Virus record (IMG/VR): IMGVR_UViG_3300044489_000068
Location: 1 to 38,477 of that record
Direction: 5' to 3' (one strand)
DNA length: 38,477 nt
Source: a virus
Below the pieces are notes generated by a model. The model did no database searches, was not told where the DNA came from, and saw only the letters and a list, made by a program, of their open reading frames with translations. Shown one piece after another: positions 2,529-11,833 of the stretch (position 1 is its first letter; every line of letters starts with the position of its first letter). The position numbers were made by a program, and so were the translations under genes.

Positions 2529-3617
2529 TCAAATATCCCGGTCCTTGGTGATCGTAAACGCTTTAGATGTTTTGATGTCCAACATGGCCTTTAGGGCCAG
2601 CTCGCGGTCCTTGATGCCGGCCTTCTTTATGATTTTTTCGAGACCCGCCTTGGTCAGCGATAGATTGTCCCACAGAAGCTCCTTGGAAACGCCCCAGGCG
2701 GACAAGGTCTTCATGAGCCCGGCCAGGTCCTTGGGTTTCCATGATTCTTTGTCGACAAGCCCCGCAGCCTTGCCCGCTGCATACACTGTCCCGTTTATTG
2801 CTGCATAACCCTTAAGGAGGCCTTTGATTTGGTCTACAATCGATTCTGCGAATAAGACGAACCGTAGGGCGGTTTCGGCTTCCTGTGGCGTAGAAACGGC
2901 ACATGGGACCCTTAAAATGGGTAGCTTCGATTCCTGCACAAGAGCGGTGCCTATTGAGTCCTTTTCGGGACACCCGGGAACTGTGCACCAATCACACAGG
3001 TTACATGCCACTGCAGGCCATTCGGTTCTGCTGTTGACATCCCAACATATCTCCATGAGTTCATCTCTGATTTCCTTTATCTCCTCACGGCTATAGGTGC
3101 GGCGTGTTACGGTGTTGGACGATACGTTGTAAACCACCGTTTCCACCTGCTCAGCCTCAGGTTCGTTGGCGAGAGCAAGAACCGCGTAGAATTCGGTCTG
3201 CTTGGGGTCGACCTCCCAATGTCCCGTCTTCCAATCAACCACGGTGGGCGTGAAACCATCGAGATAATAGTAGTCAAAAATGCCCCGTAGCACCGCTTCT
3301 GTGGAATCGAAATCACATTGACGTTCATGCGAGTCCATGGCAACCTTCACTTCCGGGCTGCCTCCAGATCGTGTGATAGTCGCAAACTCCGAAACCTTCC
3401 AGTTATAGAGCATGGCGTTGTATTTGTCTTCGTCAACCCCTTCAGGACACGCTATTTTATAGTTTGAGAGTAATAGCGCTTCAATTGCCTTGTGGGTAGC
3501 AGAACCCAGCTCCATTTCGGGAGTCTGTGGCTCCTTATGCGTTCGAGCGACCTGCATCTTGTGGAAACGGAACGGACACTCAAGGTTTTTCAACCCCGAA
3601 TAACTGAGCGTAATCAT
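2529..3617 (-). CDS. PD-(D/E)XK exonuclease, Cas4/AddB-like with iron-sulfur cysteines
   Basis: This is a RecB-type nuclease, expected to resect DNA ends for the annealing protein encoded just upstream. Visible active-site positions are His42 (GSATHKAIE), Asp115 (RGIFDYYY), Asp128-x-Lys130 (VVDWKTG) and Gln140 (KQTEFYAV). Cys14 together with the Cys205/208/211/216 cluster (CNLCDWCTVPGC) matches the split cysteine set that holds a 4Fe-4S cluster in Cas4 and AddB nucleases. About 130 further residues (230-362) form a helical tail of unknown role. Its start overlaps the bet stop (ATGA), which implies coupled synthesis of the recombination pair. Family assignment is firm. Its polarity and partner are inferred. 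Confidence 0.85.
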   Translation of the reverse strand: MITLSYSGLKNLECPFRFHKMQVARTHKEPQTPEMELGSATHKAIEALLLSNYKIACPEGVDEDKYNAMLYNWKVSEFATITRSGGSPEVKVAMDSHERQCDFDSTEAVLRGIFDYYYLDGFTPTVVDWKTGHWEVDPKQTEFYAVLALANEPEAEQVETVVYNVSSNTVTRRTYSREEIKEIRDELMEICWDVNSRTEWPAVACNLCDWCTVPGCPEKDSIGTALVQESKLPILRVPCAVSTPQEAETALRFVLFAESIVDQIKGLLKGYAAINGTVYAAGKAAGLVDKESWKPKDLAGLMKTLSAWGVSKELLWDNLSLTKAGLEKIIKKAGIKDRELALKAMLDIKTSKAFTITKDRDI

Positions 3618-5248: not shown

Positions 5249-6658
5249 TCATCCAAACATTGATATCTGTTTCCCCTTCTGATTTTCTTCGTCGAATATG
5301 TTTTTGACTGCCATTCTGAAGTATTCTTCCTTGAGTTCAATCCCCGTGAAGTGACGATTCAACTTGACCGCCACCACGCCTTCACTGCCAATTCCCATAA
5401 ATGGGCTCAGGATGTGCTCGCCAGGCCCAGACCACAACCGTATGCAGGCATCAATTACATCAAGCTGAAGCGGACAGATGTGGCGCACGTCGCCGTCACT
5501 CATTTCCTTAGTGCGCCTGTTTAGCGTATTCGTCTCATCAACCCAGTCCCAAATCGGAGAGGCCAACTTGATCCATTCTTCGTTTGATGTTTCTTGGTTC
5601 CTGATCGGGGGAGCTTCGCCTGGTTTCTGGAATTTCATCAGAAAGTCAGGGATGGCAAATCGGCTTTGCCTTGAATCCTTGCGAAGCGTTTTGAATAGGA
5701 GAGCATGAGCTTTCGTGCGAATCGCTTGCGCCTGTGGGTTTTTACCGATTGTGGCTTTACCATGATAGATGAAACCGGCACCCTCAAATAACTCCCGGCA
5801 CTCAGCCGGAAAGTCACGGATACCAGAAAAGCCTTGAATGCTCTTGAATATTGCCAGCGGGGCGATGTGCATAGCAACAATGCATCCTGGCTTGATTACA
5901 CGGTAGAGTTGATGGGCAAAGAAGCTGAAATGTAAGGCAAACTCATCATCCAGAGAATTGCAGTTCCCTATGTCCTGGTGCTTATCCGTGTAGGAATATA
6001 GATCCGCGAATGGTGGAGAGAATACAGCCAACTCAAACTGGTTCTCAGGCATCTGAGCCATAACCGAGATGCAGTCCCCGTGGATCAACCGGAATGATTC
6101 CCCATAAACATCAGGGAGAATTGTTTCAGTGGTGTTGATTTTGGCCGGGATATTCTTCGCAGCGTACTGTTTCAAATCGTCTAGTAGCGACTCAATGTAA
6201 AGGTGTTCCTGGAACGACGAATCTTCCAGATAATCTTTCTGTTTTCTCATCACATTTTCTAGCATAGGAAGTTCGGCCTTGGTGTATGGGATGTAAACCT
6301 TGACCTGCTCCGTCTGCCCGTATCTTTGTATGCGACCAACGGCCTGATAGTAGCTTTCGAATGAATCAGCAGACCAAGAGAATATGCAGATGTGGCAATG
6401 CTGGAGATTGAGGCCCATTCCGAGCAATCGAGGCTTGCTGATCAATATCCGCAGTTGCCCCTTTCTGAACTCATCCAATATTTTCAGCCTGAGAGATTGT
6501 TTTGTATTGCCGGTCAAGTGTATGGCATCCGGGATAAGTCTGACGAGAATGTCCCCTTCTTCATCATATTGAGTCCAGATGATGACCTGCTCATTCGGAT
6601 GGTCAGCAACTATGTCTGCAATCCTCGTTGGTTTATTGCTTTCGATTTGCGTCACCAT
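5249..6658 (-). CDS. SNF2 helicase C-terminal lobe fused to beta-class DNA methyltransferase
   Basis: Residues 1-125 are the second RecA-like lobe of a SNF2 helicase, with motif V-like GMGLNLQ and motif VI QAVGRIQRYGQ (105-115). Residues 185-469 are a DNA methyltransferase in beta-class order: catalytic SPPF at 214-217, then the AdoMet loop SPFMGIGSEG (418-427) and FTGIELKEEYF. SPPF favours N4-cytosine or N6-adenine methylation. The helicase N-terminal lobe is the separate overlapping gene just upstream. The ATG at 6658 has only a weak AAAGGGG site, so reinitiation or frameshifting may make this product. It would modify phage DNA, perhaps moving along DNA under helicase power. Confidence 0.88.
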   Translation of the reverse strand: MVTQIESNKPTRIADIVADHPNEQVIIWTQYDEEGDILVRLIPDAIHLTGNTKQSLRLKILDEFRKGQLRILISKPRLLGMGLNLQHCHICIFSWSADSFESYYQAVGRIQRYGQTEQVKVYIPYTKAELPMLENVMRKQKDYLEDSSFQEHLYIESLLDDLKQYAAKNIPAKINTTETILPDVYGESFRLIHGDCISVMAQMPENQFELAVFSPPFADLYSYTDKHQDIGNCNSLDDEFALHFSFFAHQLYRVIKPGCIVAMHIAPLAIFKSIQGFSGIRDFPAECRELFEGAGFIYHGKATIGKNPQAQAIRTKAHALLFKTLRKDSRQSRFAIPDFLMKFQKPGEAPPIRNQETSNEEWIKLASPIWDWVDETNTLNRRTKEMSDGDVRHICPLQLDVIDACIRLWSGPGEHILSPFMGIGSEGVVAVKLNRHFTGIELKEEYFRMAVKNIFDEENQKGKQISMFG

Positions 6659-7667
6659 ACAAAAACCCCTTTGAAATTTGGCTCAGTTTGTTCCGATTAG
6701 TGATTCCACCAGCTACCATTTTGAACATATTGAGTTGGCCGTTTTGTGTGTTCTCGTGGATCAATTTGATCTGATGATCCGTCAAACCAACATCCACCCA
6801 AATAACCTCTGGGGGTACAAGTCCGATCAGGTTGTCTTCAAATCCATAGCGAGCTGGATGCTTAAGAAAGATGCTCCAAGAGGCCAGGAATTGATAAAAA
6901 GCTCCTTTTGCATGGGGCTTGAGGAAGAAGTCGTTGCCGGACCCAGTATTGAAGAAGAACTTCGTGAAGAACTGTTTGGAATTGTCGATGTAATCAAGAA
7001 AGAGTGCATGGTTTGCGTATTCTTGGCGATCATTTGGTGCGGGTGTTGCGGTGCAGGCGAGTTTGAATGGAATCCCCTTGCAGGCATTGATGATATTCGT
7101 GCGAATCTTCCCGGTGTCGTTTTTGAGGCAGGACGATTCATCAAGGACCACCGCGCCCACTTCATCCTGTAACCGGAATATATCCCTGAACTTGTCTACG
7201 TTAACGATGCCGATGGGAGTCCCGTGCCATGCTGTGTTTTTGATAGACAAATACCTGTTGATGTTTCCATCGCAGATCATGTTGATGTCGGCAATATTGC
7301 TGTACCCATACCATTTCATTTGCTCTTCAAGTGTTTGTTTTATTAGGTGCAGTTGAGTGATGATGATGGTTTTTTTGGGATAGATGGCCCTTGAAACATG
7401 CCTTACCCATTCTAGGAACATGGCTGTTTTGCCAAGCCCGATGTCGGCGAATATGGCGAACCGTTGCTTTTTGAGGCAGAGCTTCACGATGAATTGTTGA
7501 TAGTCAAATAGATATGGAGCTAATTGAATGAAGCCTGAGACATCATTCCCATTGAAGTCCTCCACTAAGATTCGGTTTCCTTCTACCCGGTGAATTGCTG
7601 ATTTCTTGGCGGAAAGAAACGTCTGATAAGATTCCAGGGTGTAATCTTTTATTTCAATTTTCTGCAT
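6633..7667 (-). CDS. SNF2/DEAD-like helicase N-terminal lobe
   Basis: This 344-residue protein has the first RecA-like lobe of an SNF2-type ATPase: Walker A DIGLGKTA (75-82), motif Ia-like ITQLHLIKQ, Walker B VVLDESS (173-179) and motif III ACTATPAPND (204-213). It stops abruptly after GFLYGDANRKQ, where intact homologues continue into the second lobe. That lobe begins in the next gene after a 26-base overlap, in the +1 frame. It is the first gene of the leftward operon, with GGAGG just before the ATG and a promoter with operators 30-80 bases upstream. Alone it should lack full ATPase function, so the two products must associate or be joined. Confidence 0.88.
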   Translation of the reverse strand: MQKIEIKDYTLESYQTFLSAKKSAIHRVEGNRILVEDFNGNDVSGFIQLAPYLFDYQQFIVKLCLKKQRFAIFADIGLGKTAMFLEWVRHVSRAIYPKKTIIITQLHLIKQTLEEQMKWYGYSNIADINMICDGNINRYLSIKNTAWHGTPIGIVNVDKFRDIFRLQDEVGAVVLDESSCLKNDTGKIRTNIINACKGIPFKLACTATPAPNDRQEYANHALFLDYIDNSKQFFTKFFFNTGSGNDFFLKPHAKGAFYQFLASWSIFLKHPARYGFEDNLIGLVPPEVIWVDVGLTDHQIKLIHENTQNGQLNMFKMVAGGITNRNKLSQISKGFLYGDANRKQ

Positions 7668-9585: not shown

Positions 9586-9843
9586 ATGGATTACCAACAA
9601 TCGCTAACTCCCGTGTTTGACACCTGTCCGAAGGGTTGGGTTAATCCCTGCCTGGAAATTTGCACCAGAGACATCAGGACGTGCTGCTATTTCCGGCCAC
9701 GCGGACCCCAGCGCATCGCGCTCAAGTACAGAAGGGAGCTGTTCCGCTGCGACCGTTGCGGCGATACGAACGAGCGTAATTTCGAAGCGTCCTTGGTGCT
9801 GTGTGTCAAGTGCCAATCCGAGGTGCGGAAGGGTCGGCGGTAG
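9586..9843 (+). CDS. cysteine-rich zinc-binding protein
   Basis: The 85-residue product has nine cysteines. A CDRCGD...CVKC zinc ribbon fills the second half (about 54-77), and a looser set (CPKGWVNPCLEICTRDIRTCC) lies near the N-terminus. A GGAGGT site lies seven bases before the ATG at 9586, which argues against a start at 9571. It directly precedes the PAPS-reductase-like gene (8-base gap), so the two may work together. The cysteine set could bind zinc or an iron-sulfur cluster. No function is recognised. Confidence 0.6.
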   Translation: MDYQQSLTPVFDTCPKGWVNPCLEICTRDIRTCCYFRPRGPQRIALKYRRELFRCDRCGDTNERNFEASLVLCVKCQSEVRKGRR

Positions 9844-9851
9844 GAGAAGCA

Positions 9852-10700
9852 ATGCCTAGAGCACAGCAAATGTCCCTAACTCCCCTGCAAACGATGGTTG
9901 ATGAGGCCATCGATTTCATGCGGGCAAACGAGCCACCGGAAGGATATACCATGGCCGACTCGTTCGGCAAAGACAGTACGGTGCTTCTGGAGTTGGCGCG
10001 GATGGCTGGGGTTAGGTTTGTCCACATTCACAACCGCACTGGAATCGACCCGCCGGAACTGGTGGCCTTTGGGAAAAGGACCAGGCCAAACGTGATCTGG
10101 ATTCCGCCTCGCATGACCATGTGGGAGGGAATTAGGAAAAAGTTCCCTCCGACCATCCAACAGCGTTGGTGTTGTAGTGAACTCAAGAAACACAAGCTAT
10201 CAGGTCTGCCCACGTCAATATTGGTTGGTATCCGGACGGAAGAGTCGTGGAAGAGGAAAAGCAGGCCCAGGATTTCCAGTGTTCCCGCTGAACGAATTGC
10301 CCATTACAAGCCTATCTTCCACTGGAGTGAATGGCACGTGTGGGAATTCATTGAGTCGATGAACTTGCCTTATTGCCATCTTTACGATGAGGGGTTTGAC
10401 CGACTCGGATGCTGTGTATGTCCCATGATTACGAGTTCAAGTATGGCAAAGGTGAACCAACACCGTAAGCGTTGGCCTGGGTTCTATAAAGCGTTCGAAC
10501 ATGCTGTGACGTGGTGGTTCTGGAATAAGGCCTGGTGGGACAGGTTTGTCTGGAAGCGCCCCGAGCGGTTCCTAGATGCTTGGTATCGGAGCTTCAAAAC
10601 TGAATCGTCCAACAGCAGAACACAGTTAGCGGTGGAGTTGGACCACCACGGAAGTCAGTTGAGCTTCCTGAATGGGGCGCAGAATAGGAGGTTGTCATGA
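9852..10700 (+). CDS. PAPS-reductase-like / ATP-pyrophosphatase family enzyme
   Basis: This 282-residue protein has the PP-loop SFGKDS (37-42) of the adenine-nucleotide alpha-hydrolase superfamily. It also has Arg105-Trp-Cys107-Cys108 (RWCCSELKKHK) and a late cysteine group GCCVCPM (187-192), as in phage PAPS-reductase-like and DndC-like proteins. DndC members use such cysteines for an iron-sulfur cluster in DNA phosphorothioation, while PAPS reductases reduce sulfate esters. The chosen ATG follows AGGAGA, and an earlier start would overlap the previous gene. A C5-cytosine methyltransferase lies three genes on, so a part in DNA modification or defence evasion is possible but not shown. Confidence 0.85.
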   Translation: MPRAQQMSLTPLQTMVDEAIDFMRANEPPEGYTMADSFGKDSTVLLELARMAGVRFVHIHNRTGIDPPELVAFGKRTRPNVIWIPPRMTMWEGIRKKFPPTIQQRWCCSELKKHKLSGLPTSILVGIRTEESWKRKSRPRISSVPAERIAHYKPIFHWSEWHVWEFIESMNLPYCHLYDEGFDRLGCCVCPMITSSSMAKVNQHRKRWPGFYKAFEHAVTWWFWNKAWWDRFVWKRPERFLDAWYRSFKTESSNSRTQLAVELDHHGSQLSFLNGAQNRRLS

Positions 10701-10912: not shown

Positions 10913-11833
10913 GTGAACCACCTGGACCTGTTCACTGGTATCGGAGGCTTCAGCCTAGCGGCATATGAGGTGTGGGGTGACGAACACGCAATTGTCAGCT
11001 TTTGCGAAATCGACAGACGATGCAGGGAGTTCCTCTCAAGGACATGGCCCGGAGTCCCGTGTTGGGATGACATCAAAACACTCGATGCTACAAAATGGAT
11101 CGGAACAGTTGACTTGCTTTCAGCGGGGGTTCCTTGTCAGCCGGCATCTAGAGCAGGCAAGCAAAAAGGCGAAGAGGACGACCGCTGGCTCTGGCCGGAA
11201 GCTCTGCGGATTGTTGAAGAGTGTAAGCCCACTTGGGTGTTGTTTGAGAACCCTCCTGGGGTACAAGACGTGGGACTCGACGGAATACTCGCTGAGTTGG
11301 AAGGCAAAGGCTACGAAATCGGGATACTTGATATTCCGGCTTGTGCCGTCGATGCGCCGCACATCAGGAGCAGATTGTGGATCGTGGGGTACTCCGAGAG
11401 CAGTACGAGGAGGGTATTGCAGCAACATGAACGATCCGGAAAATCCGATATTGACGCTAGAGGGTCAACTGAGGGTGGCGTGGCCGACACCCGATACCAA
11501 CAATCGAGGTGGACCACAGAATCCGAACGATGCAAAAGCTCAGGGACATTCCGTGCGCCTTCAAGACTATGTTGGGACTCCCACCTCTGGCTGCCTTGCG
11601 CTGACGGAAAAGTTCGCCGTGCGCCTGATGATACTCTCGGCCTGGCTCATGGGCTACCCATGGAACTACTTGAGGCACTGGGAACGGAAGGGCGACAAAC
11701 ACCGGAAGACTGCGAACCATCAAGAAGCCTCCTGGGGGCATTAGGAAACAGCATTGTCCCCCAGGTTGCGGTTGAGATTATGATGGCCATCAAAGCGGCA
11801 ATGAGTACGGGGATAAAGGACGGTCATGACTAA
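10913..11833 (+). CDS. C5-cytosine DNA methyltransferase
   Basis: This 306-residue enzyme has motif I DLFTGIGGFS (5-14), motif IV GVPCQP with catalytic Cys75, motif VI ENP (112-114), motif VIII RSRLW (152-156) and motif X GNSIVPQVA (279-287). The target-recognition part (about 160-270) carries CADGKVRRAPDDTLGLAHGLP, a form seen in other phage enzymes. The GTG start has no close ribosome site and probably relies on coupling to the preceding gene. Motif I begins five residues in, so the start cannot be much later. It would methylate phage DNA to evade host restriction. A second long frame runs through the same DNA. Confidence 0.95.
   Translation: MNHLDLFTGIGGFSLAAYEVWGDEHAIVSFCEIDRRCREFLSRTWPGVPCWDDIKTLDATKWIGTVDLLSAGVPCQPASRAGKQKGEEDDRWLWPEALRIVEECKPTWVLFENPPGVQDVGLDGILAELEGKGYEIGILDIPACAVDAPHIRSRLWIVGYSESSTRRVLQQHERSGKSDIDARGSTEGGVADTRYQQSRWTTESERCKSSGTFRAPSRLCWDSHLWLPCADGKVRRAPDDTLGLAHGLPMELLEALGTEGRQTPEDCEPSRSLLGALGNSIVPQVAVEIMMAIKAAMSTGIKDGHD
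10965..11744 (+). other. overlapping +1-frame open reading frame with methyltransferase-like motifs
   Basis: Inside the C5 methyltransferase gene the +1 frame stays open for 259 codons. Its text contains LRTLLGYKTW, SLSWKAKATKSGYLIF, SWGTPRA, AWPTPDTNNRGG and AWLMGYPWNYL. I know these phrase types from the C-terminal parts of other phage proteins annotated as DNA methylases. The same bases give VADTRYQQSR and LGLAHGLPMELL in the main frame. No strong ribosome site precedes the ATG at 10965. It may be a real overprinted gene, a relic of an ancestral frameshift, or a mutual shadow. Confidence 0.3.

Follow-up and report, generated by a model that had tools for sequence, protein, structure and literature searches.

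The locus described here raises the question of whether a long reading frame lying inside a C5 cytosine methyltransferase gene is itself a gene and, if so, what its product does. The window, by which we mean the whole stretch of DNA analyzed, is a 38,477-base virus record whose genes include those for terminase, portal, capsid, and tape-measure proteins. Within its C5 ORF (10913-11833) lies a 259-codon ORF (10965-11744) in a phase of exactly +1, in which SWKAKATKSG (nt 11295), WGTPRA (11385), WPTPDTNN (11481), and WLMGYPWNYL (11643) can be read; VADTRYQQ and GLAHGLPM are the C5-frame reading of bases shared with these motifs. The initial annotation proposed that the same DNA, read in two frames, yields two protein styles already known, and considered overprinting, an ancient frameshift that created a second lineage, or systematic misannotation of shadows as possible meanings. 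We refer to the C5 frame as alpha and to the +1-frame protein as beta, with the following features in the window:

10913..11833, + strand: alpha, the C5 cytosine methyltransferase frame, 306 aa from a GTG start, with motifs I-VIII and X
11085..11744, + strand: beta, the +1-frame protein, 219 aa, matching phrog_1008 (1e-18), its ATG start inferred from homologues
11132..11143, + strand: alpha motif IV, PCQP, with the catalytic Cys, invariant in the relatives' alignment
11292..11360, + strand: beta LSWKAKATKSGYLIFRLVPSMRR segment, a predicted beta-hairpin kept in 84 relatives (AF2 pLDDT ~86-89)
11360..11374, + strand: alpha motif VIII, HIRSR
11378..11677, + strand: alpha variable region in its C5-frame reading (VADTRYQQ...GLAHGLPM), a shadow of beta; 2.2% of the relatives' silent C5 sites vary here versus 45% upstream
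11385..11480, + strand: beta WPTP-type unit 1 (WGTP...), with homologues among the units that single-chain enzymes carry in frame in their variable region
11481..11600, + strand: beta WPTP-type unit 2 (WPTPDTNN...), likewise homologous to single-chain units
11601..11672, + strand: beta motif-IX-like segment LTEKFAVRLMILSAWLMGYPWNYL, assigned by consensus and by a position like that of EWMMGWP ahead of motif X in single-chain enzymes
11744..11770, + strand: alpha motif X, GNSIVPQVA, at whose start the beta stop (11742-11744) falls

Alpha is a C5 cytosine DNA methyltransferase by its PF00145 match (7e-32, confined to residues 1-173) and by PCQP at 11132, HIRSR at 11360, and GNSIVPQ at 11744; it also matches phrog_363 (2.7e-64), and AGGAG precedes its GTG start. 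Beta gave no match in Pfam or NCBIfam, and the window beta and 84 of 84 relatives match phrog_1008, a separate family labelled "DNA methyltransferase". The proposal that one stretch of DNA gives both protein styles in shifted frames is correct. The first +1 ATG of homologues lies mostly 11-27 codons ahead of motif IV and, because conservation begins at EQLTCF, beta probably starts at ATG 11085 (219 aa) or at ATG 11067; the ATG at 11085 is without a clear Shine-Dalgarno sequence in the window. The preceding bases, 10965-11066, look like a passive open frame rather than beta coding sequence.

Two features of the window's gene content are also recorded here. Directly upstream of the methyltransferase is a PAPS-reductase-domain gene (9801-10700; PF01507, 3e-25); a PAPS-reductase-like gene adjoins the methyltransferase in locus L003 (2649-3323) and seemingly also in L009 (3944-4777), and a functional link of this neighbor to DNA modification is possible. 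On the minus strand (5249-7667), a helicase is found in two ORFs, DEAD (6633-7667) and Helicase_C (5249-6658), the second of which is fused to an N6/N4 DNA methylase domain (PF01555).

The arrangement is not peculiar to this virus. Single-protein scans for close relatives gave few loci and alignment searches were needed; in all, 170 loci were gathered with the +1 and C5 proteins, most of L092-L170 through a generic C5-motif query. Both frames are present in all 171 phage or viral loci, window included, and the best-scoring pair is exactly +1 in 170 of them, the exception being L156 with two adjacent copies. When bacterial loci were found by the +1 profile alone, alpha was in the matching phase in 80 of 80 (the best 80 of 192 relatives); these 80 span many phyla and are probably mostly prophages. 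The alpha/beta arrangement recurs in hundreds of phages, where annotation usually records a single gene or a pair of unrelated methyltransferases; both genes are listed in two annotated phages and only one in others, and Paenibacillus phages and E. coli phage K1G are among those with both annotated. No description of this phage overlap was found in the literature covered, subscription journals lying outside that coverage; the out-of-frame HNH insertion of mycobacteriophage ShiLan (PMC11855218) is different from the alpha/beta overlap.

The openness of the +1 frame exceeds what the C5 protein imposes on it. None of 100 synonymous-codon shuffles of the window C5 gene reached its longest +1 run, and the window +1 frame scored 152.5 bits against a +1-family HMM built without the window, compared with a mean of 55.6 bits (SD 11.5, maximum 96.8) for 2000 shuffles preserving the C5 protein and codon usage; the resemblance to beta is therefore partly a shadow of alpha but mostly not. 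We extended the shuffling of codons among synonyms to 55 testable genes found via the C5 frame only, with test regions set by C5 motifs, since a region defined by the open frame would be circular. Between motifs IV and VIII these genes have no +1 stops against 173.9 expected, and between motifs VIII and X they have 11 against 158.9; before motif IV and after motif X, +1 stops are in excess rather than depleted. The +2 frame of the same genes, used as a control, is near expectation (310 versus 301 stops for motifs IV-VIII; 544 versus 618). Ten other plasmid C5 genes had 135 +1 stops against ~144 expected, with no clear depletion, so C5 genes do not in general come with an open +1 frame. The C5 gene of the cyanobacterial plasmid pAQ5 of Picosynechococcus PCC 7002 (L299, 1394-2608) was kept out of these negative controls because it has a divergent +1 ORF, of 404 aa with a YMGFPWHL motif, a relative outside phages. 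The window +1 frame is a real gene.

Substitutions show which frame is under selection where. We compared related genes, 116 of them in independent pairs, using only blocks aligning at >=72%. Before the overlap, change per site at C5 codon positions 1, 2, and 3 is.105,.061, and.322, with the third position dominating; the first third of the variable region gives.286,.066, and.043, the dominant first position being the +1 wobble base; and at motif X the C5 pattern is back (.067,.036, and.278). The boundary at which +1 takes over as the main frame falls just after motif VIII. The proportion of four-fold C5-frame sites that vary is 45% upstream and 20% in motifs IV-VIII, falls to 2.2% in the variable region (Fisher 9e-68), and is 3.4% in the motif-IX region; four-fold sites of the +1 frame mirror this at 10% (start), 16% (motifs IV-VIII), and 31% (variable region). 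These patterns imply that both frames are constrained in the catalytic part and that +1 is dominant in the recognition part; in the variable region +1 is the selected frame and the C5 reading is its shadow. We also looked for selection confined to the main frame with +1 stops common, and found +1 stops absent and +1 selection strong. Overprinting, as the initial annotation had suggested, is thus borne out by a +1 frame that is free of stops in motifs IV-VIII and strongly selected, and its suspicion of misannotated shadows was misplaced for the +1 frame, the shadow in the variable region being the C5 frame.

The architecture of beta suggests what it is. Its consensus runs from an N-terminal part over motifs IV-VIII through LTWK..ATP.GRLLFQL and WPTP-type units, usually 1-9 per beta among relatives, to LNPxFVEWLMGYPxGWTD; in the window the LSWKAKATKSGYLIFRLVPSMRR segment overlaps alpha between motifs VI and VIII. 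The last segment resembles C5 motif IX of M.HhaI and its relatives, and we treat it as motif IX by position and by homology to the single-chain form; the motif-IX-like pattern was found in 133 of 149 relatives. Single-chain enzymes of actinophages carry motifs I-VIII, LPTP units, EWMMGWP, and GNGV in one C5 frame, and profile comparison (hhalign probability 97.9%, E 4e-13) shows the units and motif IX of beta to be homologues of the variable region and motif IX that this form carries in frame. Natural split forms also exist: in L070 and L233 alpha ends past motif VIII and beta runs in frame into motif X, and split pairs that overlap by 23-239 bp are annotated in Arturo, Catdawg, and Andrew. 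The sequences of L204 and L191 agree at 99.1% over 1.8 kb, and a single one-base indel makes the difference between split and fused; the indel in L204 is within motif VIII and could be a lesion. Single-chain genes retain LPTP units out of frame just past motif VIII, indicating that the unit array has changed frame, and motif IX is in the alpha frame in L212, L237, and L260, indicating that the allocation of pieces between frames is fluid. The idea that an ancient frameshift created a second lineage gains partial support from the homologous domains and from the one-base indels that separate split and single-chain actinophage forms.

Beta also appears to be made as a protein of its own. A Shine-Dalgarno-like sequence of 4+ bases precedes 57 of 75 in-frame +1 ATGs situated just ahead of motif IV versus 72 of 317 internal +1 ATGs, and one of five or more bases precedes 34 of 75 versus 5 of 317; by computation, beta is a selected coding frame with start signals in relatives. 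It continues beyond the alpha stop, for 397 nt in L009-L011 and 694 nt in L167, and carries further WPTP-type units there in single-coding DNA. In L156 the two adjacent copies are a tandem duplicate (133-1955) in which the second beta is intact and the overlying alpha copy is without motifs I-IV and has a damaged motif X, a survival expected if beta works in trans. We considered whether programmed ribosomal +1 frameshifting near motif VIII might instead join the catalytic domain, recognition units, and motif IX into one chain, made beside the in-frame alpha. This would fit the switch of main frame just past motif VIII and the occurrence of fused single-chain homologues, but it is quite unlikely, given that +1 is open and constrained from motif IV, far ahead of any shift site, that beta start codons with Shine-Dalgarno sequences lie near motif IV, that split forms have a separate beta, and that in most genes the shifted chain would be without motif X.

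Three insertions or extensions were noted in passing. The +1 ORF of L009-L011 ends (~2900-3300) in an extra C-terminal extension past the alpha stop that is DNA-binding-like by eye. L058 (1-1362) has an HNH-like insertion ahead of motif IV in alpha, with a stop just before SCQPF and the +1 ORF intact, and the C5 methyltransferase of Propionibacterium phage B22 (L172, 1-1983) has an intein-like insertion at the catalytic Cys of motif IV (PCFVAGTSVLTHDG...VVHNCQDLS).

Structural comparison adds little to the sequence homology. AlphaFold models are of low confidence (pLDDT 63 for beta and 59 for a single-chain homologue, with units mostly <60); a Foldseek search with the beta model, itself weak, matched no solved structure, PDB sequences searched with the +1 profile gave no match, and the single-chain model matched M.HhaI across only ~160 columns. 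Since some betas (L009-L011) carry a C-terminal extension, one could suppose that beta is real but has another job, as an anti-restriction protein, nuclease, or DNA-binding factor overprinted on alpha by chance. We regard this as very unlikely: beta is homologous to the single-chain variable region and motif IX, it can be fused in frame to motif X, and it always occurs with the alpha frame (171/171 loci; 80/80 bacterial loci, the best 80 of 192). The weakest alternative, in which the +1 ORF is open only passively, as a shadow of the conserved C5 frame, and was annotated by similarity, can draw on the ~55 bits that shuffled alphas still score against the +1 profile, but it is almost certainly wrong, being already ruled out by the substitution pattern and opposed by the +1 stop depletion, the 152.5-bit score, and the plasmid C5 controls.

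These comparisons make it very probable that the two overlapping frames of the locus specify the two subunits of one C5-cytosine DNA methyltransferase. Alpha, in frame 0, would provide cofactor binding and catalysis through motifs I-VIII, plus motif X, with its variable region serving as a free-running linker. Beta, in +1 with its own start near motif IV, would contribute motif IX and variable target-recognition WPTP units, possibly with one target apiece. We infer that beta binds alpha, completing the DNA-binding half, or small domain, and sets specificity, and that the DNA methylated by the enzyme is probably the phage's own, e.g. as protection against host restriction. The initial annotation had not seen the +1 protein as a likely recognition subunit of the same enzyme; also new are the breadth of the arrangement, the tandem units, the assignment of the recognition region to a frame, and the switching of split and fused forms by a single base.

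More broadly, we lean toward the view that a very large share of phage C5 methyltransferases would carry specificity in +1 as an exchangeable WPTP array on a separate subunit, with the alpha variable region a meaningless linker, single-base indels turning split forms into single-chain ones and the reverse, and one alpha able to serve more than one beta. If true, this would be a very widespread same-strand overlap in DNA phages in which both frames are selected and function can be inferred, and it would account for two unrelated-looking families that are both named DNA methyltransferase. The C5-frame variable region would then be unfit for predicting specificity, since the sequence that bears it lies in the frame that annotators usually drop. 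The single-chain, split, and overprinted natural forms offer a ready series on the origin of overlapping genes.

Among known systems, M.EcoHK31I reportedly has a beta subunit read from an alternative frame within alpha. M.EcoHK31I and M.AquI are both two-polypeptide C5 methyltransferases (PMC3404938). The former (YGGCCR) is a heterodimer in which alpha holds motifs I-VIII and X and a smaller beta holds motif IX (PMC3404938, citing Lee et al. 1995 NAR 23:103), with the recognition domain predicted in alpha, not beta (PMC3404938). By this described motif layout the locus in the window is alike, with motifs I-VIII and X and a shadow variable region in alpha and the motif-IX-like WLMGYP in beta. 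In the present family, by contrast, selection in the recognition region acts on beta, which argues for beta as its carrier. Beta here has 1-9 WPTP-type units, occurs mostly in phages and next to no identified nuclease partner, and comes in split, fused, and overrunning forms. M.AquI (CYCGRG) has motifs I-VIII in one chain and the distal variable region with motifs IX-X in the other (PMC3404938), a two-chain division resembled by L070, L233, Arturo, and Catdawg; in the window, by contrast, the frames overlap over most of the gene and motif X remains with alpha. Single-chain actinophage enzymes of the Phasih type share the kind of catalytic domain, the LPTP units, the EWMMGWP motif-IX segment, and motif X, but unlike the window they are all in one frame, with some units out of frame just past motif VIII. 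PMC12707154 cites Trautner et al. 1996 on multispecific phage C5 methyltransferases. In those of the SPR and phi3T type, exchangeable recognition units reportedly lie in tandem on a single chain, between its motifs VIII and IX. As described, these tandem units are like those of beta, except that they belong to one chain.
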